From assembly GCF_014191355.1 (NCBI RefSeq), contig NZ_JACHWM010000005.1, positions 186,001-250,000 of the forward strand: 64,000 nt of DNA, written 5' to 3'. This DNA is from Methylobacterium sp. R2-1 (lineage in GTDB: Bacteria > Pseudomonadota > Alphaproteobacteria > Rhizobiales > Beijerinckiaceae). The notes below the pieces were generated by a model, which made no database searches, was not told the DNA's origin, and saw only the letters and a list, made by a program, of their open reading frames with translations. This document shows positions 36,830-49,313 of this stretch, piece by piece (the first letter of the stretch is position 1; each line of letters begins with the position of its first letter). Position numbers and translations under genes: made by a program.

Positions 36830-38869
36830 TCAGCCCGGCAGTCGTCCGGCGGCCTCGCGCTCGCGCAGGTAGTCCTCGGTCGTGCGCGGCTTGGCCGGCG
36901 GCGCCGCGTGCGGGTCGAACCCCTGGGTCAGCGCCGCCTCGACGCGGCAATCGTCGCACATCATCAGCGAGCGGATGCGCTGCTCCCCGGCTTCTCCTGA
37001 GAACATCCAGTGCCGCTCGCGCAGCTTGCCGATCACCCGCTCGATGGTGGCGCGGGTGCCGAACGGCTTGGCGCAGGTGATGCAGCAGAACGGCTCCTCC
37101 TCCTTCACGATCCGGCGGGGGGCTGCCCAAGCCTCGAAGTCGATCTGCGGCTTCAGGCTGATCACGTCCTCCGGGCAGGTGGCTGCGCACAGGCCGCACT
37201 GCACGCACAGGCTCTCCTCGAAGGCGAGCAGCGGCCGGTCGGCGCTGTCCGATAGTGCATGGGTCGGGCAGGCACCGACGCAGGAGAGGCAGAGCGTGCA
37301 GTCCTCCGTGCGGAATGCGAGCCCGCCGAACGGTGCCCCGGCCGCCAGCGGCACCGCGGCGACCGGCGTCGGTGCGGCGGCGTGCATCTCGCGGAATGCC
37401 AGGCGCAGCATCTCGCGCTTGCCACCGGCGGGCACGAAGCCGGCGGGAGCCGCGGTCGCGCGACCGGGAAGCTGCGAGCGGAGCGCCGCGCCGAGCGCGT
37501 CCGGGTCATCGGTCTCGATCAGGGCGACGGTCGGCGCCTCCGTGCCGGTGCCGTAGCCGAGGGCGTCGGCGAGCGTCCGGCTCAGGCTGACGGTGCGGTG
37601 CAGGCTGTCGAGGTCGTGCTTCGAGCGCCCCCGGACGAGCACGCGCACCCCGGCCGCGCCGTAGGCGAACAGGGCGGCCAGAACCTCGGGGCCGAGTTGC
37701 GTCACCTCGTTGACGCGCACCGGCAGGACGTGCGCCGGCAGGCCGTCACCGTAGCGGCCGAGCGCGTCGATCAGCGGCTCACCATGGTCGCCATCGTGGA
37801 ACAGCACCACCGCGTCGGCGCCGCCCGCCGCCCGGTAGGCGCGCATCAGGCTGCGCAGGCGGCGCATCAGCGCGTCGGCCGGCGGCAGGGCGTAGTTGGC
37901 CGCGCCGGTGGGACAGACGGCGGCGCAGCTTCCGCAGCCGGCACAGACGTAGGGATCGATCGCCACCGTATCGCCGGCGGATGCAATCGCCCCGGTCGGG
38001 CAGACGTCGAGGCAGCGCGTGCAGCCGGTGATGCGCGAGCGGGAATGCGCGCAGAGCTCGCCGCGGAAATCGATGAAGCGGGTCTTGTCGAACTCGCCGA
38101 CGAGATGGGAGGCCGCCATCACCGCGCGCTCGACCGCCGCCGGGTCGCGCGGGTCGGCGCGCAGATAGCCGCTGCGCAGCTCGTGCGCGGGGAAGAGTGG
38201 CGTGCCACCGGTCAGATCGAGGATGAGGTCGCAGGTCGAGTTCGCGCCATCGCGCCCCGGGCCGAACGTGAGATGCGTGCGCGAGGACGGTGCCGGCAGG
38301 GCGTAGTCGTCGATGCGAAGCTCGAACGCGCCGAGATGGCCGGTCGCGCCGCGCACCGTGCCGCGGATCACCGGGAACTCGTTGCGGCGGAGCGGCGCGA
38401 TCTCGCCCGGCCGGCTCAAGAGCACTGTGACGTCGAGATGATCGGCCAATCGCCGCCCGGCGTCGATCGCGACCTCGTCGCGGCCGTAGATCAGGGCGAC
38501 GCCGCGGCTCTCCAGCGGCACCGTGCCAGCGACGGGAACCGCCTCCGCGGCCGCAGCCAGAAGAGCTGCCATTTTCGGGCCCGCTCGATCAGCCTGCGAC
38601 GACCAGCCGGCCGTCTCGCGGATCTTGGCGAAGGTGATGCGCTCCTCCGCTTCCAGTTCGGCCGCGAACTCCTCGAAGAGCGGTGCCTGAAGCGTGCAAG
38701 AGACGGTGATCGGGACACCCGTCGCCACGGCTTCACGGTAGCGGTCGAGTTCACGACCGCAGAGCTGGTCGGCGGTGCGCACGCGACCGCCGCAGCCCTT
38801 TTCCAGAGCCGCGACATCGAGCGGCATCGTCTTCTCGCAAGAACAGGCGAACACGAGACGATCGGACAC
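36830..38869 (-). CDS. Four-cluster [4Fe-4S] polyferredoxin of the FDH3 locus
   Basis: Iron-sulfur protein of 679 residues, divergent from the FDH3 accessory operon. Two ferredoxin pairs are visible: around Cys283/286/290 with Cys309/312/315/319, and Cys524/527/530/534 with Cys555/558/561/565. Each follows the CxxCxxCxxxCP pattern. Extra cysteines occur at the N-terminus (FACSCEKT, C9/C11) and near the C-terminus (CCITC about 595-599; CDDC about 638-641), suggesting further metal sites. Similar proteins accompany this type of formate dehydrogenase. The most likely role is electron transfer or cofactor maturation; neither has been shown here. Confidence 0.85.
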   Translation of the reverse strand: MSDRLVFACSCEKTMPLDVAALEKGCGGRVRTADQLCGRELDRYREAVATGVPITVSCTLQAPLFEEFAAELEAEERITFAKIRETAGWSSQADRAGPKMAALLAAAAEAVPVAGTVPLESRGVALIYGRDEVAIDAGRRLADHLDVTVLLSRPGEIAPLRRNEFPVIRGTVRGATGHLGAFELRIDDYALPAPSSRTHLTFGPGRDGANSTCDLILDLTGGTPLFPAHELRSGYLRADPRDPAAVERAVMAASHLVGEFDKTRFIDFRGELCAHSRSRITGCTRCLDVCPTGAIASAGDTVAIDPYVCAGCGSCAAVCPTGAANYALPPADALMRRLRSLMRAYRAAGGADAVVLFHDGDHGEPLIDALGRYGDGLPAHVLPVRVNEVTQLGPEVLAALFAYGAAGVRVLVRGRSKHDLDSLHRTVSLSRTLADALGYGTGTEAPTVALIETDDPDALGAALRSQLPGRATAAPAGFVPAGGKREMLRLAFREMHAAAPTPVAAVPLAAGAPFGGLAFRTEDCTLCLSCVGACPTHALSDSADRPLLAFEESLCVQCGLCAATCPEDVISLKPQIDFEAWAAPRRIVKEEEPFCCITCAKPFGTRATIERVIGKLRERHWMFSGEAGEQRIRSLMMCDDCRVEAALTQGFDPHAAPPAKPRTTEDYLREREAAGRLPG

Positions 38870-38899
38870 GATTGAACCTGAGACGAGCGGGAGAGCGGG

Positions 38900-38921
38900 A
38901 GACCCCTTCGCGCCGGGGTCT
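38900..38921. other. Hairpin in the divergent FDH3 promoter region
   Basis: AGACCCC (38900-38906) pairs perfectly with GGGGTCT (38915-38921) across an eight-base loop. It lies between the divergent polyferredoxin and lipoate-ligase-like genes, where promoters for both must sit. It may be an operator or part of a 5' leader; there is no T-run to make it a terminator. Confidence 0.35.
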
Positions 38922-38995
38922 GCCTTCCATATACTCGCATCATTCTAAAACGACGAACGGACATGCGGGCGCAGGCGGCCCGCCCGATACGGCTC

Positions 38996-39760
38996 ATGAC
39001 CTCCCAACTCGACACTGGCTCATTGGACTTGCGCCCCGCACCGCTCATCCTGCCGCCGGCCTTCACTGGACTCGTCACGGCAGGCTTTCCGGGCGCGGCC
39101 GGGCAGGCCCGCCGGTTGGCGGAGGCAGGCGAGGCGGAGGCCGGCACACTCCTCATGGAGGAGCACGACGACGTCATCGCGCTCGCCGTAGTGCTGGCGC
39201 CAACCGAGCCGCTCGCCACGGCGCGGCGGGCCTTCTTTGTCGGGATGCAGGCGTTGGCCGATGCGGTCGGCACCTTCGGACCGCCCGAAATCCCGGTGAC
39301 CTTCCTGTGGCCCGACACCCTGACCTTCAATGGTGCCCGTCTCGGCGGCGGCGCGCTGCACTGGCCCGAGAGCTGCAGCGAGATGGAGACGCCGGATTGG
39401 CTCGTCTTCTCGGCGATGCTGATCGCCTCCAAGCCAAATGCGGGCGATCCGGGCTTCACGCCCGACTCCACCTCGCTGGAGGAAGAAGGTTTTCCCAAGG
39501 AGCTGCGCGAGCCGCTGGTGGAGAGTTTTGCCCGCCACCTCACCAAGGCGTTCGAGATCTGGAGCGAGGACGGCGCCGCGCGCTCGACGGGACGCTACCT
39601 CGCCCGCCTCGCGCTGCCGCCGGGCGTGCAGGTGACGATCGAGCCGAGCGGGGACGCCCGGCTCGTCCACGCCGACGGCCGCAGCGAGGCGCTGCCGCTT
39701 CGACCGGCGCTGGTCGCGCCCTCGTGGCACGACCCGGCCACCGGCACGGTGCGGCTGTGA
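38996..39760 (+). CDS. Biotin/lipoate protein ligase-like protein (DUF4444 type) of the FDH3 operon
   Basis: Protein of 254 residues, first gene of the FDH3 operon. The N-terminal 180 residues resemble the biotin/lipoate ligase fold (AGTLLMEEHDDVIALAVVLAP, FLWPDTLTFNGARLGG), and a small C-terminal domain follows. I do not see the GRGRxGRxW loop of BirA, so ordinary biotin transfer is doubtful. ATG 38996 is used; ATG 38963 would add 11 basic residues. Its stop overlaps the next start (GTGA). A role in maturing the dehydrogenase is inferred from the locus. Confidence 0.78.
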   Translation: MTSQLDTGSLDLRPAPLILPPAFTGLVTAGFPGAAGQARRLAEAGEAEAGTLLMEEHDDVIALAVVLAPTEPLATARRAFFVGMQALADAVGTFGPPEIPVTFLWPDTLTFNGARLGGGALHWPESCSEMETPDWLVFSAMLIASKPNAGDPGFTPDSTSLEEEGFPKELREPLVESFARHLTKAFEIWSEDGAARSTGRYLARLALPPGVQVTIEPSGDARLVHADGRSEALPLRPALVAPSWHDPATGTVRL

Positions 39761-40335
39761 CTCCGACCCTGACTTCGGGCAAGCTGCCGCGTACCCTGCG
39801 GCTCGACCCCTCCGACACCTTCGTCTTCGCGCAGGCCGCCGAGCCCGGCGAGTGGGCGGTGACCGGCTCGTTCCTGTTCTTCGATGTCGACCTGTCCGCC
39901 CTGGCGGGAAAGGACCGGGCGGCGTTCCGCTCCGGCTTCGTCGGCGTGCGCAGCCTCGGCTTCTCGACCCTCGTCGTCGTCAGCGAGGCGAGCGACGCGG
40001 AACGCGAGGCCGCGATCGAGGACCTCGCCCGCCACATCCACGAGCGCTTCGGCGCACCGGATCGCGAAGCCGCCCGCGCCGCCGCGCGCGAAGAGATCGA
40101 AGTCGCGGCGTCCCTCTGCAACCTGCCGGTCGGCAGCGTGGTGGCAATGCATCGAAGCGAGCGCGACGGCGAGATCGCGGAGGAGTTCCGCACGCTGCAC
40201 CAGCGCGCGCCGGGCGCGGACCCGCTGCACGGACGCGCCTTCCACTTCGTCGAGACGGACGAGGACGGACCGGATGAACAGGCCGACCTCGTGGGACTTC
40301 TGAAGGATGCCTCCGCGGGGGCTGAGAGAGCATGA
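39757..40335 (+). CDS. DUF6505-like protein of the FDH3 operon
   Basis: Soluble protein of 192 residues, starting at GTG 39757 within the stop of the preceding gene. It opens KLPRTLRLDPSDTFVFAQAAEPGEW and has an FVGVRSLGFSTLVVVSEAS segment and a C-terminal FHFVETDEDGPDEQADLVGLL. No enzymatic motif is recognised. The same frame is open for about 880 bases upstream, but that part is a shadow of the ligase-like gene. Coupled by 4-base overlaps on both sides. Confidence 0.75.
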   Translation: MTPTLTSGKLPRTLRLDPSDTFVFAQAAEPGEWAVTGSFLFFDVDLSALAGKDRAAFRSGFVGVRSLGFSTLVVVSEASDAEREAAIEDLARHIHERFGAPDREAARAAAREEIEVAASLCNLPVGSVVAMHRSERDGEIAEEFRTLHQRAPGADPLHGRAFHFVETDEDGPDEQADLVGLLKDASAGAERA

Positions 40336-41342
40336 CCGAGTTCTGGGTTTCGAGCGGCCACCACCTGACGCAGCGCACCGAAGGCGGTGGGCTTGCCGTC
40401 ACCGATGAGCTGATCCTCGCCTATCTGGCGCGCCCCGAACTGGTGCCGCCGGAGGAGGCGTGCGCGGCAGAGCGCGCCCTGCACGCGGGCTTGCTCGCCG
40501 ATCCGCGTCGGTCCGTGACGAGCGACGATATTCGGAAAATCGCGGACGCGGATGCGCGGGAGAACTGGGAGGTGATGCTCGCCTTTCGCGACCGCTTGCT
40601 CGCGGCTCGCTCGGTCGAGGCAGCCTATCTCGCGCTGGTCCGCGGTGGATTGCAGGGCGTGCCGGGGCTGTTCCTGACCCAGCTCGTTCACCTGATCCTG
40701 CGCAACGCGCTCGATGCATGCGAGGACCCGTTCGTGCTGCGGGCCGCCGAGCTGTTCTTCCGTTCCCAGCGGGTCAGCCTGCACGAGGGTGCGGTGCTGC
40801 TCGCCGACGCCGAGGTGATCGAGGCACGCGAAGGCGGCGCGCCGCTCTCGCCCCTGGTCTCCATGCTCGGCAAGGAGGCGGCCAGCGAACTCGACGTGCT
40901 CAACGAGGAGAACGCCTGGACCTACTGGAGCCGGTCGGACGCCTTCACCATGGCGCTTAATCTCGGCTCCAGCGGACGAAGCCGGGAAGGGCTGGCGCGG
41001 GCAATCGAGGCCTTCGTGCGCCACCTCCTCAACGCCGAGGTCACGGTCGTGCCCCTCGATCGGATGGAGGATCCCGACTGGCGCTGGTTCGTCGGGCTCG
41101 ACGCCGAGGGCACGCGGATCGGCAATGCGCTCTGGCACGGCGAGGCCCTCGATGATGCCGCACGCGAGCGGGTGATCGCGGTGTTCAGCCTCACCTTCGC
41201 CGATGCCACCCAGGTCGACCCCCGGGTCGGCGATCGGCCGGTCTACCTGCTGCTCGCTATGACCCCTGACAAGACCGTGCAGCTCAAGCCCCAAAATATC
41301 GTCGTCGGATTGCCGCTGGTCTCCGACCGAGCCGCTGCGTGA
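40332..41342 (+). CDS. DUF6352-like protein of the FDH3 operon
   Basis: Soluble protein of 336 residues; family of unknown function. It opens EFWVSSGHHLTQR and contains a central helical region (LVHLILRNALDACEDPFVLRAAELFFRSQRVSL, about 115-148) and a more sheet-rich C-terminal half (WRWFVGLDAEGTRIGN). The ATG overlaps the preceding stop (ATGA). No catalytic residues can be named. The conserved placement beside FDH genes suggests a chaperone or cofactor-handling role. Confidence 0.78.
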   Translation: MTEFWVSSGHHLTQRTEGGGLAVTDELILAYLARPELVPPEEACAAERALHAGLLADPRRSVTSDDIRKIADADARENWEVMLAFRDRLLAARSVEAAYLALVRGGLQGVPGLFLTQLVHLILRNALDACEDPFVLRAAELFFRSQRVSLHEGAVLLADAEVIEAREGGAPLSPLVSMLGKEAASELDVLNEENAWTYWSRSDAFTMALNLGSSGRSREGLARAIEAFVRHLLNAEVTVVPLDRMEDPDWRWFVGLDAEGTRIGNALWHGEALDDAARERVIAVFSLTFADATQVDPRVGDRPVYLLLAMTPDKTVQLKPQNIVVGLPLVSDRAAA

Positions 41343-41350
41343 GGCTGACC

Positions 41351-41893
41351 ATGACACTGGACAACACGCCGCAAACGCTGCCGCAAGGATTGCCGGAAGA
41401 CCGCTTCGAGGTCGGCATCATCGTGGCCCGCCGTCGCCTGAAAGGACCGTGGGCGAGCCATGCCTGGATGCCGGTCGCGGCCCTGCCGGCGGTGCCGCAG
41501 GCCGCACCCTGGACCCAGCTCTCCGAGACGGAGGAGGAGGCGACCTTCTACGCGGGCGCCCACGAGGTCACGCTGCACATCGCCGAGACGTCGCATTACC
41601 GCGACAATCTCGTCTCCGGCCGCCCCTCCCTCTGGGTGACGCTGCACGCCACGGCAGATGACACCTACGAAGTCGCGAGCGTCACCGCCGATCCCTACGA
41701 GGGCGAATCGATGGCGGAGGGCATAGGCGAGATCGTCGAGGCGGTGCCGATGCCGCCCGAGGTGCAGGCCAAGCTGCTCGCCTTCTTCGAGGCGTTCCAC
41801 ATCGAGCGCAGGTTCGAGAAGCGCAAACGCGACCGCGCCGACCCCGAAGCCCTGGCCCGCCGCGCCCCCGGCACGCAGGGGAAGCCGGAATGA
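41351..41893 (+). CDS. DUF3305 protein of the FDH3 operon
   Basis: Soluble protein of 180 residues from ATG 41351; GTG 41339, overlapping the preceding stop, is an equally possible start adding four residues. Family features are FEVGIIVARRRLKGPWASHAWMP near the N-terminus and MPPEVQAKLLAFFEAFHIERRFEKRKRDRADPEAL near the C-terminus. It always pairs with a DUF3306 gene in loci of this type, as here, where the stop overlaps the next ATG. Function unknown. Confidence 0.82.
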   Translation: MTLDNTPQTLPQGLPEDRFEVGIIVARRRLKGPWASHAWMPVAALPAVPQAAPWTQLSETEEEATFYAGAHEVTLHIAETSHYRDNLVSGRPSLWVTLHATADDTYEVASVTADPYEGESMAEGIGEIVEAVPMPPEVQAKLLAFFEAFHIERRFEKRKRDRADPEALARRAPGTQGKPE

Positions 41894-42603
41894 GCGACAA
41901 CTTCCTCTCCCGCTGGGCCCGCCGCAAAGGAGCCGTCCGCGCCGCCGAACGGTCGGAGCCGCCCGCCGCCGCGGACACGGCCGGTGTTGCTGAGGCCCTC
42001 GACACTGCGCATCCACCGGGCGAAGCCGAGACTCCCCTGCGAACGGAGAAAGTCGACGCCGCCGACCATCCGGAAACCGTGCCGGACGATCTGCTGGCGA
42101 GCCTTCCGTCTCTCGAGGCCCTGACGCCGGACACCGACCTGACCGCCTTCCTCCAAGCCGGTGTTCCGACGGCGCTGCGCAATGCGGCCCTGCGGCGGAT
42201 GTGGTCGCTCGACCCAGCGATCCGGGACTTCGTCAGCGAGGCGCGGGAATACGCCTATGATTGGAACATGCCGGGCGGTGTACCCGGCATGGGGCCCCTT
42301 CTGCCGACCGACGACGTGAAGGCGATGCTGAAGCGCGTCATCGACGGCGTCCCTGTCGAGGTCGAGGAGGAGCCCGACGCCGAGCCGCCGGAGGTCGCGG
42401 CGGCGCCTCAGGAAGGCTCTGCGGAGGCGGCCGTTGCCGACGGCCCGGAGCTTGAAGCTGTCACCCGGTTCGAGGAGGCGGCATCGCCGACGGCAGATCC
42501 GGGGCTGCAGGTCGCCGGTATGGCCGATGTCCATTTCGAAGCCGCAGAATCGTCACCTCTTCGGCCCCGCCTGCGGCGCCATGGAGGGGCGATGCCCTCA
42601 TAA
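41890..42603 (+). CDS. DUF3306 protein of the FDH3 operon
   Basis: Protein of 237 residues. The N-terminal FLSRWARRKGAVRAAER signature is characteristic of DUF3306; a mid-region LRRMWSLDPAIRDFVSEAREYAYDWNMPGGVPGMGPL (about 98-135) is the conserved core. The C-terminal 90 residues are acidic and low complexity. No membrane segment or catalytic motif is seen. Start overlaps the DUF3305 stop by four bases; an 85-base gap then precedes the TorD gene. Confidence 0.82.
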   Translation: MSDNFLSRWARRKGAVRAAERSEPPAAADTAGVAEALDTAHPPGEAETPLRTEKVDAADHPETVPDDLLASLPSLEALTPDTDLTAFLQAGVPTALRNAALRRMWSLDPAIRDFVSEAREYAYDWNMPGGVPGMGPLLPTDDVKAMLKRVIDGVPVEVEEEPDAEPPEVAAAPQEGSAEAAVADGPELEAVTRFEEAASPTADPGLQVAGMADVHFEAAESSPLRPRLRRHGGAMPS

Positions 42604-42688
42604 TTCACGCGCATTTCGATTGCGGCAAAGCCAAACGCTTTTTATTATCGGTCCAAACAAGACGGTCCTGCATGCGGACCCGAGGGAC

Positions 42689-43327
42689 ATGATGGGTTCG
42701 GTTGCGTCGGTGATGGCACTTCGGGGAGATGAGGTGTCTGGCGTCGCCGGTGTGCCGGACGACATCGATCTCCTGCGCGCGCAGCAATACGATCTCCTGG
42801 CGGCCCTGCTCGGGCGTGCGCCGGACGCGTCGCTGCTGGCGGCACTCGCCGCACTCAAGAACGGCGACGGTGTTCTCGGCCATCAGGTCGCGACCCTGCG
42901 ACGCGCAGCGGCCGAGACCGACTCGGAGATGGTCGAACGCGAGTACTTCGCGCTGTTCATCGGCGTCGGCCGCGGCGAACTCCTCCCTTACGCCTCCTAC
43001 TATCTCACCGGCTTCCTCAACGAGCGTCCGCTCGCCCGGGTGCGCGAGGACTTCGCCGCGCTCGGCATCGAGCGGAACGAGTCGATGTGCGAGCCGGAGG
43101 ATCATCTCGCGATCCTCCTGGAGGTGATGGCGGGCCTGGCAGCGGGCCGGTTCGAGGCGGAGCCCGGCCTGCAGGCCCGCTTCTTCGCCCGCCACATCGA
43201 GCCCTGGGCCGAACGGTTCTTCACCGACCTGGAGAACGCGAAAGCGGGGCGGTTCTACCGCGCGGTCGGCGGGCTCGGCCGCGCCTTCATCGAGATCGAG
43301 GCAGAGGCCTTCGCCATGGAAGGCTGA
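42689..43327 (+). CDS. TorD-family molybdoenzyme chaperone
   Basis: Cytosolic chaperone of 212 residues, expected to hold the Tat signal of the formate dehydrogenase catalytic subunit until its cofactor is inserted. The TorD/DmsD fold is shown by LLRAQQYDLLAALLGRAPD (about 28-46), EREYFALFIGVGRGELLPYASYYLTGFL (about 90-117) and the EPEDHLAILLEVMAGLA motif (about 138-154). ATG 42689 is followed immediately by another in-frame ATG. Operon position just before the Tat peptide and fdh3A supports the role. Confidence 0.9.
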   Translation: MMGSVASVMALRGDEVSGVAGVPDDIDLLRAQQYDLLAALLGRAPDASLLAALAALKNGDGVLGHQVATLRRAAAETDSEMVEREYFALFIGVGRGELLPYASYYLTGFLNERPLARVREDFAALGIERNESMCEPEDHLAILLEVMAGLAAGRFEAEPGLQARFFARHIEPWAERFFTDLENAKAGRFYRAVGGLGRAFIEIEAEAFAMEG

Positions 43328-43403
43328 AGGGCTTCTCCATCGTGACAAGTGGGATTGGGGCGCGTTGCAGGAGAGCAGGCAGCCGCCGAAGGAGACGAGG
43401 GTG

Positions 43404-43649
43404 ATGCGACAGGATCCGAAGACGCTCGGTCGTCGCCAGTTCTTTCGGGCGCTCGGCGGCAGCACGGTGGCCGCCGCGGCGGCGGTCGCCTCGCCGATGG
43501 GCGCGACCGAGGCTCAGGCCTACGATCCCGGCAACGACGAGACCAAAGCCCGGTATCGGGAGAGCGACCATGTGAAGGCGTTCTACCGCACCAACGGCTA
43601 CGAGACCCTCAAGAAGAACACCGATCCGGCGTCGACCGGTCCGAAGTGA
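43404..43649 (+). CDS. Small twin-arginine peptide of the formate dehydrogenase region
   Basis: Protein of 81 residues of the family known as formate-dehydrogenase-region Tat target. The signal LGRRQFFRALGGSTVAAAAAV is followed by about 40 residues (ETKARYRESDHVKAFYRTNGYETLKK) that form the conserved part. ATG 43404 follows an AAGGAG ribosome site at the right distance. It lies seven bases before fdh3A. Its function is not known; it may be a small subunit or an assembly factor exported with the enzyme. Confidence 0.87.
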   Translation: MRQDPKTLGRRQFFRALGGSTVAAAAAVASPMGATEAQAYDPGNDETKARYRESDHVKAFYRTNGYETLKKNTDPASTGPK

Positions 43650-43656
43650 GGCTGCC

Positions 43657-46599
43657 ATGCTGATCAAGCGCAAGAGCGGCGACGCTGCTCGCACCAAGCA
43701 CCAGGCCGTCGCCGCCGGCCTCGCGTCGGGCGTGCTCGACCGCCGCGCCTTCCTCCGCAAGTCCGGGCTGACCGCCGGTGCGCTCGCCGCCGCCGGCACG
43801 ATCCAACTCGGCTCGGTGCGCAAGGCGCAGGCCGCCGGCTCCTCCGCTGTCGGGCCGGACACGGTCATCAAGAAGAACGTCTGCACCCATTGCTCGGTTG
43901 GCTGCACGGTCACGGCCGAAGTCGTGAACGGCGTCTGGGTCGGCCAGGAGCCGTCCTACGCCAGCCCGATCAACCGCGGCACGCACTGCGCCAAGGGCGC
44001 GGCCATCCGCGAACTCGTCTCGTCCGACCGCCGCCTCAAGTACCCGATGAAGCTCGAGGGCGGGCAGTGGAAGCGGATCTCGTGGGATCAGGCCTACGAA
44101 GAGATCGGCGACAAGCTGATACAGATCCGCGAGAAGAACGGCGCCGACTCGGTCTATTGGCTGGGTTCGGCCAAGTTCACCAACGAGGCCTCCTACCTGA
44201 TGCGCAAGTTCGCGGCCCTGTGGGGCACGAACTCGGTCGACCATCAGGCGCGGATTTGCCACTCGACCACGGTGGCGGGCGTGGCCAACACCTGGGGCTA
44301 CGGCGCCCAGACCAATTCCTACAACGACATCCGCAACGCCAAGACGATGATCATCCTCGGCGGCAACCCCGCCGAGGCGCACCCGGTCTCCCTGCAGCAC
44401 GTGTTGTCGGGCAAGGAGATCAACCGCGCGAACATGATCGTCATCGATCCGCGCTTCACCCGCACGGCAGCGCACGCCACCGAGTATGTGCGCATCCGCT
44501 CCGGCACCGACATTCCGGTGGTCTGGGGCATCCTCTGGCACATCTTCCAGAATGGCTGGGAGGACAAGGAGTTCATCGCCCAGCGCGTCTACGCGATGGA
44601 CGACGTGCGCAAGGAAGTCGCCAAGTGGACGCCCGACGAGGTGGAGCGTGTCTCCGGCGTGCCGGGCGAGCAGCTCAGGCGCGTGGCGGAGAAGTTCGCC
44701 AAGGAGAAGCCCGCGACCCTGATCTGGTGCATGGGCGCGACCCAGCACACGGTCGGCACGGCGAACGTGCGCGCGCTCTGCATCCTGTGCCTGGCCACCG
44801 GCAACGTCGGCAAGCCGGGAACGGGTGCCAACATCTTCCGCGGCCACACCAACGTGCAGGGCGCGACCGATCTCGGCCTCGATGTGACGTCGCTGCCGCT
44901 CTATTACGGCCTCGTCGAGGGCGGCTGGCGCCACTGGGCCCGCGTCTGGGAGGTCGAGTACGAGTGGCTGCAGTCGCGCTTCGATGAGGTTCCGGCGAAG
45001 GGCGGCCGCAAGGCGCGCACCCGCAAGGAGAACATGGAGGCGCCCGGCATCACCTCGACCCGCTGGTTCGACGCCGTGAACCTGCCGCCGGAGCAGATCG
45101 ACCAGCGCAGCCCGGTCAAGGCCTTCATGGTGTTCGGGCACGGCGGCAACACCGTCACCCGCATGCCCGAGGCCATCGAGGGCATGAACAAGCTGGAATT
45201 GCTCGTCGTCGCCGACCCGCACCCGACGACCTTCGCCGCGCTCGATGCCCGGCAGGACAACACCTACCTCCTGCCGATCTGCACCTCGCTCGAGATGGAC
45301 GGCTCCCGCACAGCCTCGAACCGCTCGCTGCAATGGGGCGAGCAGATCGTGAAGCCGGCCTTCGAGTCCAAGACCGACTACGAAGTGCTCTACCGGCTCG
45401 CGCAGAAACTCGGCTTCGCCGATAAGCTCTGCAAGAACATCAAGGTCGTCGATGGCGTCCCCGAGGCGGAAGACATCCTTCGGGAGATCAACCGCGGCGG
45501 CTGGTCCACGGGCTATTGCGGCCAGTCGCCGGAGCGGCTGAAGGCGCATATGCGCAACCAGCACAAGTTCGACCTCGTGACGCTGCGTGCGCCCAAGGAC
45601 GATCCGGAGGTCGGCGGCGACTATTACGGACTGCCCTGGCCTTGCTGGGGCAAGCCGGAGCTGCGCCATCCGGGCTCGGCGATCCTCTACAACACGAACC
45701 TTCACGTGAAGGACGGCGGCGGCGGCTTCCGCGCGCGGTTCGGCACCGAGCGCAACGGCCAGACGCTGCTCGCCGAGAACTCCTTCTCGAAGGGTTCGGA
45801 CCTGACCGACGGCTATCCCGAATTCACTTTCGGGGTGTTCAAGAAACTCGGCTGGGACAAGGATCTGACCCCGGAGGAACTCGCCACCATCCTGAAAATC
45901 GGCGGCGAGAAGCCCGATACCGTAAGTTGGGCGACCGACCTCTCGGGCGGCATCCAGCGCGTCTGCCTCGATCACGGCGTCTCGCCCTTCGGCAACGGCA
46001 AGGCCCGGGCCAACGCCTGGAACCTGCCGGATCCGGTGCCGGTCCACCGCGAGCCGATCTACTCGCCGCGGCCCGAACTGGTAGCGAAGTACCCGACCCG
46101 TCCCGACGAGCGGCAGCTGCGCATGCCCAATATCGGCTTCTCGGTGCAGAAGTCGGTGGTGGATCGCGGCGTCGCCAAGGACTTCCCGATCATCCTCACC
46201 TCCGGTCGCCTCGTCGAGTACGAGGGCGGCGGCGAGGAGACCCGCTCGAATCCGTGGCTCGCCGAGCTCCAGCAGGACATGTTCGTCGAGATCAACACCG
46301 GGGATGCGGCCGAGCGCGGCATCAAGGACGGTCAGTGGGTCTGGGTCTCGGGTGCCGAGAACAACGCCAAGACCAAGGTCAAGGCGCTGGTGACCGACCG
46401 TGTCGGTAAGGGCGTCGCGTTCATGCCCTTCCACTTCTCCGGTTGGTACCAGGGCAAGGACATGCGCGACTTCTACCCGAAGGGCACCGACCCGGTGGTG
46501 CTCGGCGAGAGCGTGAACACCGTGACCACCTACGGCTTCGATCCTGTGACGGGCATGCAGGAAACGAAGTGCACCCTGTGCCAGATCGCAGCGGCCTGA
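43657..46599 (+). CDS. fdh3A: Formate dehydrogenase 3 catalytic (alpha) subunit
   Basis: Molybdopterin oxidoreductase of 980 residues, oxidising formate to CO2 in the periplasm. A Tat signal (RRAFLRKSGLTAGAL, about 29-45) precedes the [4Fe-4S] site Cys76/79/83/111 (CTHCSVGC...GTHCAKG). The active-site ligand is Cys201 with His202 (ARICHSTTV), the cysteine form of the position held by selenocysteine in E. coli FdnG. The molybdopterin-binding C-terminal domain includes ILTSGRLVEYEGGGEETRS. It ends in a CTLC motif. Assignment to FDH3 of Methylobacterium rests on the associated genes. Confidence 0.95.
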   Translation: MLIKRKSGDAARTKHQAVAAGLASGVLDRRAFLRKSGLTAGALAAAGTIQLGSVRKAQAAGSSAVGPDTVIKKNVCTHCSVGCTVTAEVVNGVWVGQEPSYASPINRGTHCAKGAAIRELVSSDRRLKYPMKLEGGQWKRISWDQAYEEIGDKLIQIREKNGADSVYWLGSAKFTNEASYLMRKFAALWGTNSVDHQARICHSTTVAGVANTWGYGAQTNSYNDIRNAKTMIILGGNPAEAHPVSLQHVLSGKEINRANMIVIDPRFTRTAAHATEYVRIRSGTDIPVVWGILWHIFQNGWEDKEFIAQRVYAMDDVRKEVAKWTPDEVERVSGVPGEQLRRVAEKFAKEKPATLIWCMGATQHTVGTANVRALCILCLATGNVGKPGTGANIFRGHTNVQGATDLGLDVTSLPLYYGLVEGGWRHWARVWEVEYEWLQSRFDEVPAKGGRKARTRKENMEAPGITSTRWFDAVNLPPEQIDQRSPVKAFMVFGHGGNTVTRMPEAIEGMNKLELLVVADPHPTTFAALDARQDNTYLLPICTSLEMDGSRTASNRSLQWGEQIVKPAFESKTDYEVLYRLAQKLGFADKLCKNIKVVDGVPEAEDILREINRGGWSTGYCGQSPERLKAHMRNQHKFDLVTLRAPKDDPEVGGDYYGLPWPCWGKPELRHPGSAILYNTNLHVKDGGGGFRARFGTERNGQTLLAENSFSKGSDLTDGYPEFTFGVFKKLGWDKDLTPEELATILKIGGEKPDTVSWATDLSGGIQRVCLDHGVSPFGNGKARANAWNLPDPVPVHREPIYSPRPELVAKYPTRPDERQLRMPNIGFSVQKSVVDRGVAKDFPIILTSGRLVEYEGGGEETRSNPWLAELQQDMFVEINTGDAAERGIKDGQWVWVSGAENNAKTKVKALVTDRVGKGVAFMPFHFSGWYQGKDMRDFYPKGTDPVVLGESVNTVTTYGFDPVTGMQETKCTLCQIAAA

Positions 46600-46616: not shown

Positions 46617-47213
46617 ATGGCCCGGATGAAGTTCCTCTGCGACGCGGACCGCTGCATCGAGTGCAACGCCTGCGTCACCGCCTGCAAGAACGAGCACGAG
46701 GTGCCGTGGGGCATCAATCGCCGCCGCGTCGTCACCCTCAACGATGGCAAGCCCGGCGAGCGCTCGGTCTCGATGGCCTGCATGCACTGCACCGACGCGC
46801 CCTGTGCGGCGGTGTGCCCCGTGAACTGCTTCTACACCACCGCCGACGCGGTGGTTCTGCACTCCAAGGACATCTGCATCGGCTGCGGCTACTGCTTCTA
46901 CGCCTGCCCGTTCGGCGCGCCCCAGTACCCGCGCGTCGGGAACTTCGGTTCGCGCGGCAAGATGGACAAGTGCACCTACTGCTCCGGCGGCCCCGAGCCC
47001 GACTTCTCGACCGCCGAGTACGAGAAGTACGGCTCGAACCGTCTGGCGGAAGGCAAGCTGCCGCTCTGCGCCGAGATGTGCTCGACCAAGGCGCTGCTCG
47101 CGGGTGACGGCGAGATGATCGCCGAGATCTACAAGCAGCGGGTGATCAAACGCGGCTACGGCTCCGGCGCCTGGGGCTGGAAGACGGCCTATCGCGAGAC
47201 CGTGGCGATCTGA
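46617..47213 (+). CDS. fdh3B: Formate dehydrogenase 3 iron-sulfur (beta) subunit
   Basis: Protein of 198 residues with four [4Fe-4S] motifs carrying electrons from the alpha to the gamma subunit: CIECNACVTACKNEH (about 13-27), CMHCTDAPCAAVCPV, CIGCGYCFYACPFGAP and the split CTYC...CAEMC. It lacks the C-terminal membrane helix of E. coli FdnH. ATG 46617 follows a GGAG ribosome site, 17 bases after fdh3A. A strong hairpin separates it from fdh3C. Confidence 0.94.
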   Translation: MARMKFLCDADRCIECNACVTACKNEHEVPWGINRRRVVTLNDGKPGERSVSMACMHCTDAPCAAVCPVNCFYTTADAVVLHSKDICIGCGYCFYACPFGAPQYPRVGNFGSRGKMDKCTYCSGGPEPDFSTAEYEKYGSNRLAEGKLPLCAEMCSTKALLAGDGEMIAEIYKQRVIKRGYGSGAWGWKTAYRETVAI

Positions 47214-47281: not shown

Positions 47282-48319
47282 ATGCGGCGGGCGACGACCT
47301 TCCTCAGCACCCTTCTCCTGGCGGTGATGCTCCTCGCGGTGCCCGGCGCGTTCGGCCCGGCCCAAGCGCAGAACCCGATCCAGGCCGACGGCCAGAACCC
47401 GATGGGCGCCCGGCCGACCGCGGATTCGGTCAACGAGGAATTCCTGTTCAAGCAGGAATCCAAGATCCAGGGTCGCGTCTCGATTCCAGACCGGAAGTCG
47501 GCCAACCTGATCCAGCCGCAGGGCCGCGAGTATCAGAACTTCCGCGAGCGCTGGCTGCCCTGGATCGGGGCTCTCGTCATCCTCGGCATGCTGGCGGCGC
47601 TCGGCGCGTTCTTCCTGTTCCGCGGCCGGATCATGATGGAGCACAGCCAGGAATCGGGGAAGAAGATCCTGCGCTTCAACGCCTTCGAGCGCTTCACCCA
47701 CTGGATGACAGCGGTGTGTTTCATCATCCTGTCGCTGTCGGGCCTGAACTACATCTTCGGCAAGCGGCTGCTGATGCCGCTGATCGGCCCGGAAGCGTTC
47801 GGCGCCATCGCGCAGTGGGCGAAGTACAGCCACGTCTATCTCGCGTGGCCGTTCATGCTCGGCGTCGCCTTCATGTTCGTCCTCTGGATCAAGGACAACA
47901 TCCCGAGCAAGGTCGATTGGGCCTGGATCAAGGCAGGCGGCGGCTTCATCGGCAAAGGCCACCCCCATGCCGGCCGCTTCAATGCGGGCCAGAAGGGCGT
48001 GTTCTGGATGGTCGCCGGCTTTGGCGCAGCAATGGCCGTCACCGGCCTGATGATGCTGTTCCCGTTCGCTCTCACCGACATCAACGGGATGCAGGTGATG
48101 CAGGTGATCCACTCGGTGATCGGCATCGTCTTCATCGCCGGCATCCTCGCTCACATCTACATCGGCACGCTGGGCATGGAGGGCGCCTACGACGCCATGG
48201 GCAGCGGCCAAGTCGATCTCGCCTGGGCGCGCGCGCACCACGACCTGTGGGTCGAGCAGGAGCAGGCGCGCACCGCAAGCGGCCCGCAGCTCAAAGGCCA
48301 TCCTGCGCCTGCAGAGTAA
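47282..48319 (+). CDS. fdh3C: Formate dehydrogenase 3 cytochrome b (gamma) subunit
   Basis: Membrane anchor of 345 residues passing electrons to the quinone pool. An N-terminal signal peptide (ending about AQAQ) is followed by a periplasmic stretch, then membrane segments at about residues 95-115, 140-160, 185-202, 240-260 and 275-295. Candidate heme-ligating histidines are in NAFERFTHWMTA, KYSHVYLAW, and HSVIGIVFIAGILAHIYIG near the end, as in FdnI-type subunits. ATG 47282 follows an AAAGGAA ribosome site. Confidence 0.93.
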   Translation: MRRATTFLSTLLLAVMLLAVPGAFGPAQAQNPIQADGQNPMGARPTADSVNEEFLFKQESKIQGRVSIPDRKSANLIQPQGREYQNFRERWLPWIGALVILGMLAALGAFFLFRGRIMMEHSQESGKKILRFNAFERFTHWMTAVCFIILSLSGLNYIFGKRLLMPLIGPEAFGAIAQWAKYSHVYLAWPFMLGVAFMFVLWIKDNIPSKVDWAWIKAGGGFIGKGHPHAGRFNAGQKGVFWMVAGFGAAMAVTGLMMLFPFALTDINGMQVMQVIHSVIGIVFIAGILAHIYIGTLGMEGAYDAMGSGQVDLAWARAHHDLWVEQEQARTASGPQLKGHPAPAE

Positions 48320-48415: not shown

Positions 48416-48661
48416 ATGAAAGCCTTCATCGCCGCCATCATCGCCGCCATCGCCCTCGGGGTGCTGGCGATGTTCGCGCTCACGAGCAATCAGAAGTTTG
48501 CCTATCAGGCCTTCGCAACCTCCGGCGCCCGTGTCTCGGAGCCTGGCACCAACCTCGTCGGTCCCCGCTGGAACGGCGACCCGGCTCCGGACGAGTACGG
48601 CTCCGAGGCCGAACCGCACGGCAAGGCCGAGGGAACGGCCTCGCATCCGAAGCGCTCCTGA
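48416..48661 (+). CDS. Small membrane/exported protein downstream of fdh3C
   Basis: Protein of 81 residues. An N-terminal hydrophobic segment (KAFIAAIIAAIALGVLAMFAL) is followed by a hydrophilic part with GTNLVGPRWNG. No cleavage site is obvious, so it may be a single-span anchor. It lies 96 bases after fdh3C on the same strand and 43 bases before another exported protein, so it may belong to the FDH3 transcript. Family not recognised; similar length to small subunits of respiratory complexes. Confidence 0.65.
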   Translation: MKAFIAAIIAAIALGVLAMFALTSNQKFAYQAFATSGARVSEPGTNLVGPRWNGDPAPDEYGSEAEPHGKAEGTASHPKRS

Positions 48662-48704
48662 GCGCGGACCGACACGAAGAGCGGACAATCGACGGAGTGA
48701 CCCG

Positions 48705-49313
48705 ATGAAGCCTTCGCCCATCACCCGGCATTTGGCCGGCAGCCTCGTGGCGTACGCGCTCCTCGTCGGGGTCGCTGCGGCGCAGGACGCAGGACAGTCC
48801 GCTCCGCCCGCCGCACCGCAGGTCGCTTCCGGAAAGCCGGCTAATCTTTGCCAGGAACTGGTCGCCTTCGTGAAACAGCCGGAACCGGCCAACAAGGCGG
48901 CCGCGACGCCGCAGCAGCAGGCAACTGCGGTCTCGAACCCGTCAGGCAAGACAGAGGGAGGCAAGCCAGCGGATGGCGGCGAGCCTCAGAAGTCGTCGGG
49001 CCTGAGCGGCGCCGTCAGCGAGACCGGCAACGGCCCCACGCCAGGCAAGCAGTCCGGCAACCAAGCCGGTGAACCGACGATGAAACCGCATGCCAAGGCC
49101 AATGCCGAGGCGAAAAATCCCCCACCCCCGGCAGCACCTGCTCCGTCCCCGAAGCCCGACCCAGCGACCGTTGAGAAGATCGAGGCCGCCGCCGGTGCCA
49201 ACGACCTCGCCGCCTGCCGGGAGGCTGCCCGCTCGATGCGCGTCGCCGGCGTCGTCATGCCGCCGCCCCTGCTCGCGCTCTCGGCGCTCGATCTGAAGTT
49301 CTTTCAGCAGTAA
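48705..49313 (+). CDS. Secreted Pro/Ala-rich protein downstream of FDH3
   Basis: Protein of 202 residues with a signal peptide (LAGSLVAYALLVGVAAAQ, cleaved near residue 26). The mature protein has a short N-terminal part with one cysteine (ANLCQELVAFVKQP), a long low-complexity Pro/Gly/Lys/Ala linker (about 60-150) and a C-terminal helical part with a second cysteine (NDLAACREAARSMRVAG). ATG 48705 follows a GGAG site. Unknown function; the two ends could be joined by a disulfide. Co-oriented with the FDH3 operon. Confidence 0.65.
   Translation: MKPSPITRHLAGSLVAYALLVGVAAAQDAGQSAPPAAPQVASGKPANLCQELVAFVKQPEPANKAAATPQQQATAVSNPSGKTEGGKPADGGEPQKSSGLSGAVSETGNGPTPGKQSGNQAGEPTMKPHAKANAEAKNPPPPAAPAPSPKPDPATVEKIEAAAGANDLAACREAARSMRVAGVVMPPPLLALSALDLKFFQQ

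Follow-up and report, generated by a model that had tools for sequence, protein, structure and literature searches.

The gene cluster and its conserved order

We analyzed a 64,000-nucleotide stretch of DNA from Methylobacterium sp. R2-1 (contig NZ_JACHWM010000005.1, positions 186,001 to 250,000; hereafter the window), in which five genes at 38996-42603 precede the structural genes of the formate dehydrogenase FDH3. All five open reading frames (ORFs) exceeded the cut-offs of their Pfam families, so that the ORFs and family labels of the initial annotation were borne out. On the plus strand, the first gene encodes a biotin/lipoate-ligase-like protein that is probably a pseudo-ligase (38996..39760; PF16917, E 4.7e-56). 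It is followed by genes for a DUF6505 protein, whose GTG start overlaps the stop codon of the ligase-like gene (39757..40335; PF20115, E 1.9e-54), a DUF6352 protein that shares 93% identity with its M. thiocyanatum counterpart (40332..41342; PF19879, E 2.7e-59), a DUF3305 protein whose homology to the MobA-DUF3305 family NF011058 covers the C-terminal half of that family (41339..41893; PF11749, E 6.7e-38) and a DUF3306 protein (41890..42603; PF11748, E 3.1e-21), in which the alignment revealed a basic N-terminal motif, a short conserved core and acidic variable regions. Downstream on the same strand are genes for a TorD/NarJ-family chaperone (42689..43327; PF02613, E 1.5e-32) and a small twin-arginine translocation (Tat) signal peptide of formate dehydrogenase regions (43404..43649; TIGR02811, 55.8 bits against a cut-off of 48.45). 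Domain matches and sequence then identified FdhA, the molybdopterin catalytic subunit, which has its own Tat motif, RRAFLRK (43657..46599). The FDH3 beta subunit follows (46620..47213 as covered by the profile, with the true start possibly slightly upstream; NF038355, 340.8 bits against a cut-off of 240), and then the gamma subunit, a cytochrome b membrane protein (47282..48319; TIGR01583, 154.7 bits, above the cut-off).

The four junctions among the five genes are all 4-base overlaps (GTGA, ATGA, GTGA and ATGA), as had been annotated; a second in-frame ATG lies 12 bases inside the DUF3305 gene, so its overlap with DUF6352 hinges on the choice of start. Neighborhoods were compared in the best 80 of 542 loci from one DUF6352 profile scan, a set that is biased to close relatives. 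The order ligase-like, DUF6505, DUF6352, DUF3305, DUF3306, TorD, Tat peptide and FdhA was found on one strand in 65 of the 67 loci holding all eight genes, which is more than chance. The two exceptions are Aurantimonas loci (L100 and L104), where DUF3306-TorD-Tat-FdhABC lies apart from the segment running from the ligase-like gene to DUF3305; the same split is seen in L103, a locus in which no ligase-like gene was detected. The 4-nucleotide overlaps recurred at 46 of 75 ligase-like/DUF6505, 65 of 78 DUF6505/DUF6352, 34 of 79 DUF6352/DUF3305 and 63 of 72 DUF3305/DUF3306 junctions. The strict coupling and fixed order that had been proposed therefore hold for the order, but the overlaps are common rather than strict. 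In more distant genomes (G047 and those of groups f14 and f38), the ligase-like and DUF6505 genes are arranged differently: in all seven f14 and f38 loci (four and three, respectively), the ligase-like gene stands with DUF6505 in a unit of its own that adjoins an Mrp/NUBPL gene, and DUF6494 lies near this unit in three of the four f14 loci.

The five genes had been placed directly before TorD. TorD, the Tat peptide and fdh3ABC do come next, but a gap of 85-88 nucleotides intervenes and contains a conserved non-coding element (42619..42645, plus strand), a possible promoter or operator of the structural genes. This element is kept in Methylorubrum and some Methylobacterium relatives and is unique in the window (0 expected). 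In 36 of 69 loci, for example in Bradyrhizobium, Phreatobacter and Bosea, the corresponding gap contains an ATAG-N7-CTAT palindrome, with a spacing that we take to be LysR/OxyR-like. The palindrome occurred only four times in the remaining 1.39 Mb of locus sequence, and base-shuffled gaps contained it in a mean of 0.135 loci (maximum 2). In 25 further genome stretches (428 kb), it was present three times, always in this gap (L029, L030 and L040). It is absent from the window gap (42604-42688), where the element is a different and unrelated one. A scan of 38600-43700 for sigma-70 promoters found none. From the conservation of the palindrome and of the element, we conclude that there are probably two transcription units, with a regulated promoter specific to the structural genes, and with the five genes at the head of a separate unit in these lineages. 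A second palindrome around GGAATAATTCC, presumably reminiscent of iron-responsive (Irr) boxes, follows the first in the gap of Bradyrhizobium-type loci (e.g. L082, L090 and L106).

Co-occurrence with FDH3 and with cofactor genes

The distribution of the genes was first surveyed in 160 Pseudomonadota genomes from 95 genera. FDH3-beta, DUF3305 and DUF3306 were each found in the identical 21 genomes (14 genera) and in none of the other 139, which strongly supports the annotated tie to this formate dehydrogenase. FdhA, FdhB, FdhC and TorD were present in the fetched region of all 20 carriers besides the window, and in 20 of the 21 genomes (not in G111), a TIGR02811 match was located about 12 kb or less from DUF3305. 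The other three genes were nested within the same 21 genomes: DUF6352 in 9, DUF6505 in 15 and strong PF16917 matches (165 bits or more, the next score being 95.9) in 14. Because only DUF3305 and DUF3306 occur in all 21 while the other three vary by lineage, the five genes are not one inseparable set; across these samples, the DUF3305-DUF3306 pair makes up the universal core, to which the other three add a lineage-dependent module.

Copies distant from the cluster accounted for two of the nine DUF6352 genes and one of the 15 DUF6505 genes. A second sample comprised 192 genomes of the same class, 28 of which carried FDH3. DUF6352 was found in 24 genomes, 23 of them with FDH3, and was absent from five of the 28; the lone genome without FDH3 (G166) is an assembly of 810 contigs with 7% contamination. 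Relative to FDH3-beta, DUF6352 lay within 10 kb in 14 of the 24 genomes and at 279 kb in one, and in the other nine it was on another contig or FDH3 was missing. Linkage alone thus does not explain the co-occurrence, which argues for a functional tie over hitchhiking, although the sampled genomes are related and the counts are not independent trials. The initial annotation had regarded frequent occurrence away from any molybdoenzyme as evidence against its proposal, and this was observed only to a mild degree: some DUF6352 and DUF6505 genes are located elsewhere, yet always in FDH3 genomes in the first sample (9/9 and 15/15). In the 160 genomes, DUF3305 and DUF3306 occur only alongside their enzyme, as we would expect of system-specific maturation factors, and DUF6352 does so in the second sample with one exception in 24. 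Apart from pairs involving FdhC or MoeA, almost all pairs of cluster genes showed high distance-matrix correlations; we treated these as shared inheritance and not as interaction.

We also found a link to genes of the molybdopterin cofactor. The window DUF3305 protein matched NF011058, a MobA family with a DUF3305 domain, at positions 199-368 of 382 (E 2.5e-20), and the sibling families NF011056 and NF011057 have MobB in the place of DUF3305. A MobA search matched 146 of 289 genomes, and the ten best-scoring loci were examined; four of these (L047, L049, L051 and L054) showed the gene order fdhD-mobA-DUF3305-DUF3306, and in two of the four, mobA and DUF3305 are in one frame with a single stop codon between them. 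In 9 of 21 genomes, no more than 13 kb separated FdhD from FDH3-beta; MobA was no more than 10 kb from FDH3 in 8 of 28, and no more than 17 kb away in another two. Among the 80 loci, the neighbors included MoeA (39), Mrp (21), MobA (20), FdhD (15) and MobB (15). FdhD was found in every one of the 21 FDH3 genomes, and also in 47 of the 139 without FDH3; the five genes are therefore no replacement for FdhD. The linkage to MobA and FdhD favors the cofactor insertion or assembly role that had been put forward, whereas the sulfuration role suggested with it is disfavored, since FdhD, the known sulfurtransferase, is retained throughout and the window DUF3305 and DUF3306 proteins contain no cysteine.

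The domain search found no match to PF02634 (FdhD/FdsC domain) in the five proteins and no MobB domain (PF03205) in DUF3305, for which PF11749 was the only match at E up to 1. CxxC motifs, of which FdhE has four, are absent from all five window proteins. The loci contained 21 ORFs of 220-420 amino acids with four to six clustered CxxC motifs, all of them with the motifs of FdhB, and no FdhE-like gene was found beside FDH3 in the loci scanned, the rest of the genomes not having been searched for FdhE. TorD and the DUF3305/DUF3306 pair may fill the place of FdhE.

Other neighbors are also recurrent. A divergent gene for a polyferredoxin-like 4Fe-4S protein with Fer4 domains (36830..38869, minus strand; 679 amino acids as called) has counterparts in 77 of the 80 loci, usually ahead of the ligase-like gene, and a GBBH-like_N protein is encoded nearby in 12 loci of the Bradyrhizobium type. 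After fdh3C in the window lies an ORF of 271 amino acids (48498-49313) with no Pfam or NCBIfam match and a relative in L032. Annotated plasmids with the full set were those of Bradyrhizobium sp. 131 and Sinorhizobium meliloti (plasmid pB, L138, typed as conjugative). The pB set is flanked by an ABC transporter with a solute-binding protein, two molybdopterin-binding proteins, MobA and FdhD.

Two further groups of genes were observed beside FDH3. In 10 of the 80 loci, from genera including Aurantimonas, Mesorhizobium and Chelativorans, there is a molybdate/tungstate-type ABC permease (below the TupB cut-off) together with a helix-turn-helix protein with a PBP_like domain (e.g. L105 3951-4853 and L127 3285-4019); an ABC transporter and a helix-turn-helix regulator likewise lie beside the cluster in S. 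meliloti (L138 1-3811). These transporters hint at tungsten or molybdenum supply. A protein combining WD40 repeats with a cytochrome c domain neighbors FDH3 in 53 of the 80 loci (e.g. L026 1425-2723) and could be its electron acceptor or partner.

Features of the five predicted proteins

For sequence comparison, alignments A1 and A5 were made without L032, and A3 and A4 without L033 (over-extended ORFs); L037 was left out of the ligase family model. A6 and A7 contained 53 and 58 relatives, respectively, of the 80 loci after removal for redundancy and truncation, and also excluded L063, L066, L072, L120 and L135 (A6) and L094 (A7).

By family profile, the ligase-like protein belongs to the biotin/lipoate protein ligases (BirA/LplA), as judged from PF16917, from the match of its profile to PDB 3bfm across nearly the whole length (E 3.5e-89) and from weak matches to BirA chains. 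As test sites, we used two features of BirA, the GRGRxGR adenylate loop and the catalytic lysine K183, the register of the latter being taken from the BirA alignment of the ligase-like profile. The GRGR loop was found in none of the 79 ligase-like sequences and in none of the 14 in alignment A2. Its absence from the window protein had been noticed initially and thus extends to 79/79, and the catalytic lysine is missing too. The column aligned with K183 contains L (52), R (21), I (2), V (2), H (1) and M (1), and only one of the 79 sequences (L121) has a lysine within two columns of it; the corresponding residues in A2 are R (6), V (3), L (3), S (1) and E (1). The protein is therefore probably a ligase fold without ligase chemistry, judging from these residues. 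The entry 3bfm was deposited as a biotin protein ligase-like protein of unknown function, and we found no relevant paper on it by code or name in the open-licence literature. A PF16917 match in genome G016 was considered as an FDH-linked copy and rejected, because this BirA-like protein possesses a GRGR loop.

Inspection by eye detected no signal peptide and no Tat- or Sec-like segment in the five window proteins. None contains a membrane-type hydrophobic segment either, the highest 19-residue hydropathy mean being 1.34 compared with 2.55 for the membrane protein FdhC. The five proteins are thus predicted to be cytoplasmic, and given the Tat signal of FdhA, they would be expected to act prior to its export. 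A description of DUF3305 and DUF3306 as putative membrane proteins, in a passage of PMC4464133, was rejected on the hydropathy of the window proteins. No redox motifs were found in the five, and the domain profile search revealed no DNA-binding domain.

AlphaFold models of DUF6352 (predicted local distance difference test, pLDDT, 91.2; predicted template modeling score, pTM, 0.90) and DUF3305 (pLDDT 90.3, pTM 0.75) were compared with the PDB. The best Foldseek E values were 0.82 and 0.11 and the best VIA Z-scores 3.3 and 2.5 for DUF6352 and DUF3305, respectively, with no clear match. The modeled folds may be new, a missing PDB match being no proof of this. When the PDB was searched by profile, DUF3305, DUF6352 and DUF3306 had no matches with E values of 1 or below, and DUF6505 matched antibody chains alone (E 0.38-0.49).

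A possible role in FDH3 maturation

The gene set is real, strongly conserved and FDH3-specific, and has been partly noted before, in 3bfm and in a passage of PMC4464133. The latter recorded in 2015 a DUF3305/DUF3306 pair upstream of dmsD-fdhGHI in 60% of those operons; these are the same two families beside fdh, and the passages concerned neither assign them a function nor refer to the other three genes. Passages of PMC2535785 and PMC5826389 list Shewanella SO4504 and SO4505 as conserved hypotheticals between SO4503 (FdhD) and SO4506 (an Fe-S protein); the gene order in related loci suggests that these would be DUF3305 and DUF3306. We found no functional study of these families in the open-licence literature.

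The known systems resemble the five genes in part. TorD/NarJ chaperones are likewise cytoplasmic and dedicated to a single exported molybdoenzyme but belong to a different profile family, and a TorD gene is present here in addition. FdhD/FdsC, described in part of PMC6239281 as a bis-molybdopterin guanine dinucleotide (bis-MGD)-binding formate dehydrogenase chaperone, also acts in formate dehydrogenase maturation and neighbors the cluster in part of the genomes; it is of other families than the five and is kept alongside them. FdhE, an accessory protein that a passage of PMC10609526 describes as systematically linked to periplasmic formate dehydrogenases, is tied to Tat-exported enzymes as the five are, but differs from them in its CxxC motifs. 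PDB 3bfm, the homologue of the ligase-like protein, is a structure only. For MeFDH1 of M. extorquens, part of PMC13197769 reports a tungsten-cofactor relay MoeA1-MobB-MobA-FdhD mapped by deletion and two-hybrid analysis; this relay concerns FDH1, and the terms fdh3, DUF and TorD have no occurrences in the main text of that source. The nearest precedents would be FdhD/FdsC, through its bis-MGD binding, and the platform for trimethylamine N-oxide reductase on which, in a passage of PMC10609526, TorD is reported to interact with MobA.

We consider it fairly likely that the five genes encode dedicated FDH3 maturation factors. A cofactor-loading role is the best hypothesis in view of the link to MobA, the pseudo-ligase and the nested distribution taken together. 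In this scheme, five cytoplasmic factors would act on the FdhA(B) precursor ahead of Tat export, and the DUF3305-DUF3306 core would serve the step at which bis-MGD, the product of MobA, passes to the apoenzyme. DUF3305 would be a MobA-docking adaptor that couples MobA to the precursor, DUF3306 would hold or proofread the precursor with TorD, and FdhD would still add sulfur to the cofactor. The ligase-like, DUF6505 and DUF6352 proteins would form an auxiliary module in part of the lineages, with the dead biotin-ligase fold as a binding or scaffold protein. MobA docking, cofactor handover, proofreading and any physical complex are steps that we infer, and the assignment of DUF3305 to the MobA handover in particular is plausible but tentative. 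More doubtful is the full version, in which FDH3 has its own cofactor-loading machine of an undescribed kind: the Tat-bound catalytic subunit would receive bis-MGD from DUF3305 as a MobA-coupled adaptor, DUF3306 and TorD would replace FdhE in proofreading, and the non-catalytic ligase fold, with DUF6505 and DUF6352, would bind the dinucleotide cofactor or its carrier.

Several observations weigh against a cofactor-loading role. The presence pattern is evidence of dedication and not of which step is served, and neither the DUF3305 nor the DUF6352 model resembles a known cofactor-binding protein. No protein in the 289 genomes scored above the NF011058 cut-off as an intact MobA-DUF3305 fusion, the evidence for which consists of the curated family and the adjacent in-frame genes in two genomes. 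The other six of the ten MobA loci had no DUF3305 in the 3.2-3.7 kb fetched, and as the loci were picked by score, four in ten is not a rate. MobA was far away or on another contig in 18 of the 28 FDH3 genomes and not listed in two, and in the genome of the window itself, both MobA and FdhD are on other contigs. Finally, the Fe-S-related neighbors fit cluster assembly equally well.

These neighbors point to the alternative that the five proteins, with the divergent polyferredoxin and Mrp, assemble or insert the Fe-S clusters of FdhA/FdhB and not the pterin cofactor. The frequency of both genes in the 80 loci, the Mrp/NUBPL gene adjoining the ligase-like gene in every f14 and f38 locus and the GBBH-like_N protein of the Bradyrhizobium-type loci agree with it; the lack of cysteine in DUF3305/DUF3306 and of CxxC in the other three window proteins does not, and DUF3305 is tied to MobA and not to Fe-S genes, so that we regard this explanation as unlikely. 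Sharing both region and genomes with FdhABC, the five could instead be structural or electron-transfer partners of mature FDH3, which is quite unlikely for proteins without export signals, membrane helices or redox motifs when FdhA itself carries a Tat signal. The conserved element just 3' of DUF3306 would suit proteins that regulate FDH3 expression or sense formate or metal; given that none of the five has a DNA-binding domain and that the MobA link suits maturation better, such a function seems very unlikely.

Still less credence can be given to active biotin or lipoate ligation by the ligase-like protein, with the other four genes as hitchhikers. The PF16917 match and the weak BirA similarity are compatible with it, but the GRGR loop and the lysine are absent from 79/79 sequences, and unlinked DUF6352 and DUF6505 genes still co-occur with FDH3. 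That the five replace FdhD as a cofactor sulfuration system, as the initial annotation suggested and the operon position allows, is scarcely credible with FdhD in all 21 FDH3 genomes of the sample.

A role of the five genes in FDH3 maturation would give four DUF families and the crystal structure 3bfm a concrete, testable function, in a genus whose tungsten-cofactor pathway has recently been dissected genetically, as part of PMC13197769 reports. It would also be relevant to the production in other hosts of metal-dependent formate dehydrogenases, which are wanted for CO2 reduction; maturation of the catalytic subunit is a bottleneck reported for MeFDH1 in E. coli in a passage of PMC13396061. 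If FDH3-type enzymes need these five genes, constructs limited to fdhABC plus general chaperones would fail for a reason that can be remedied.

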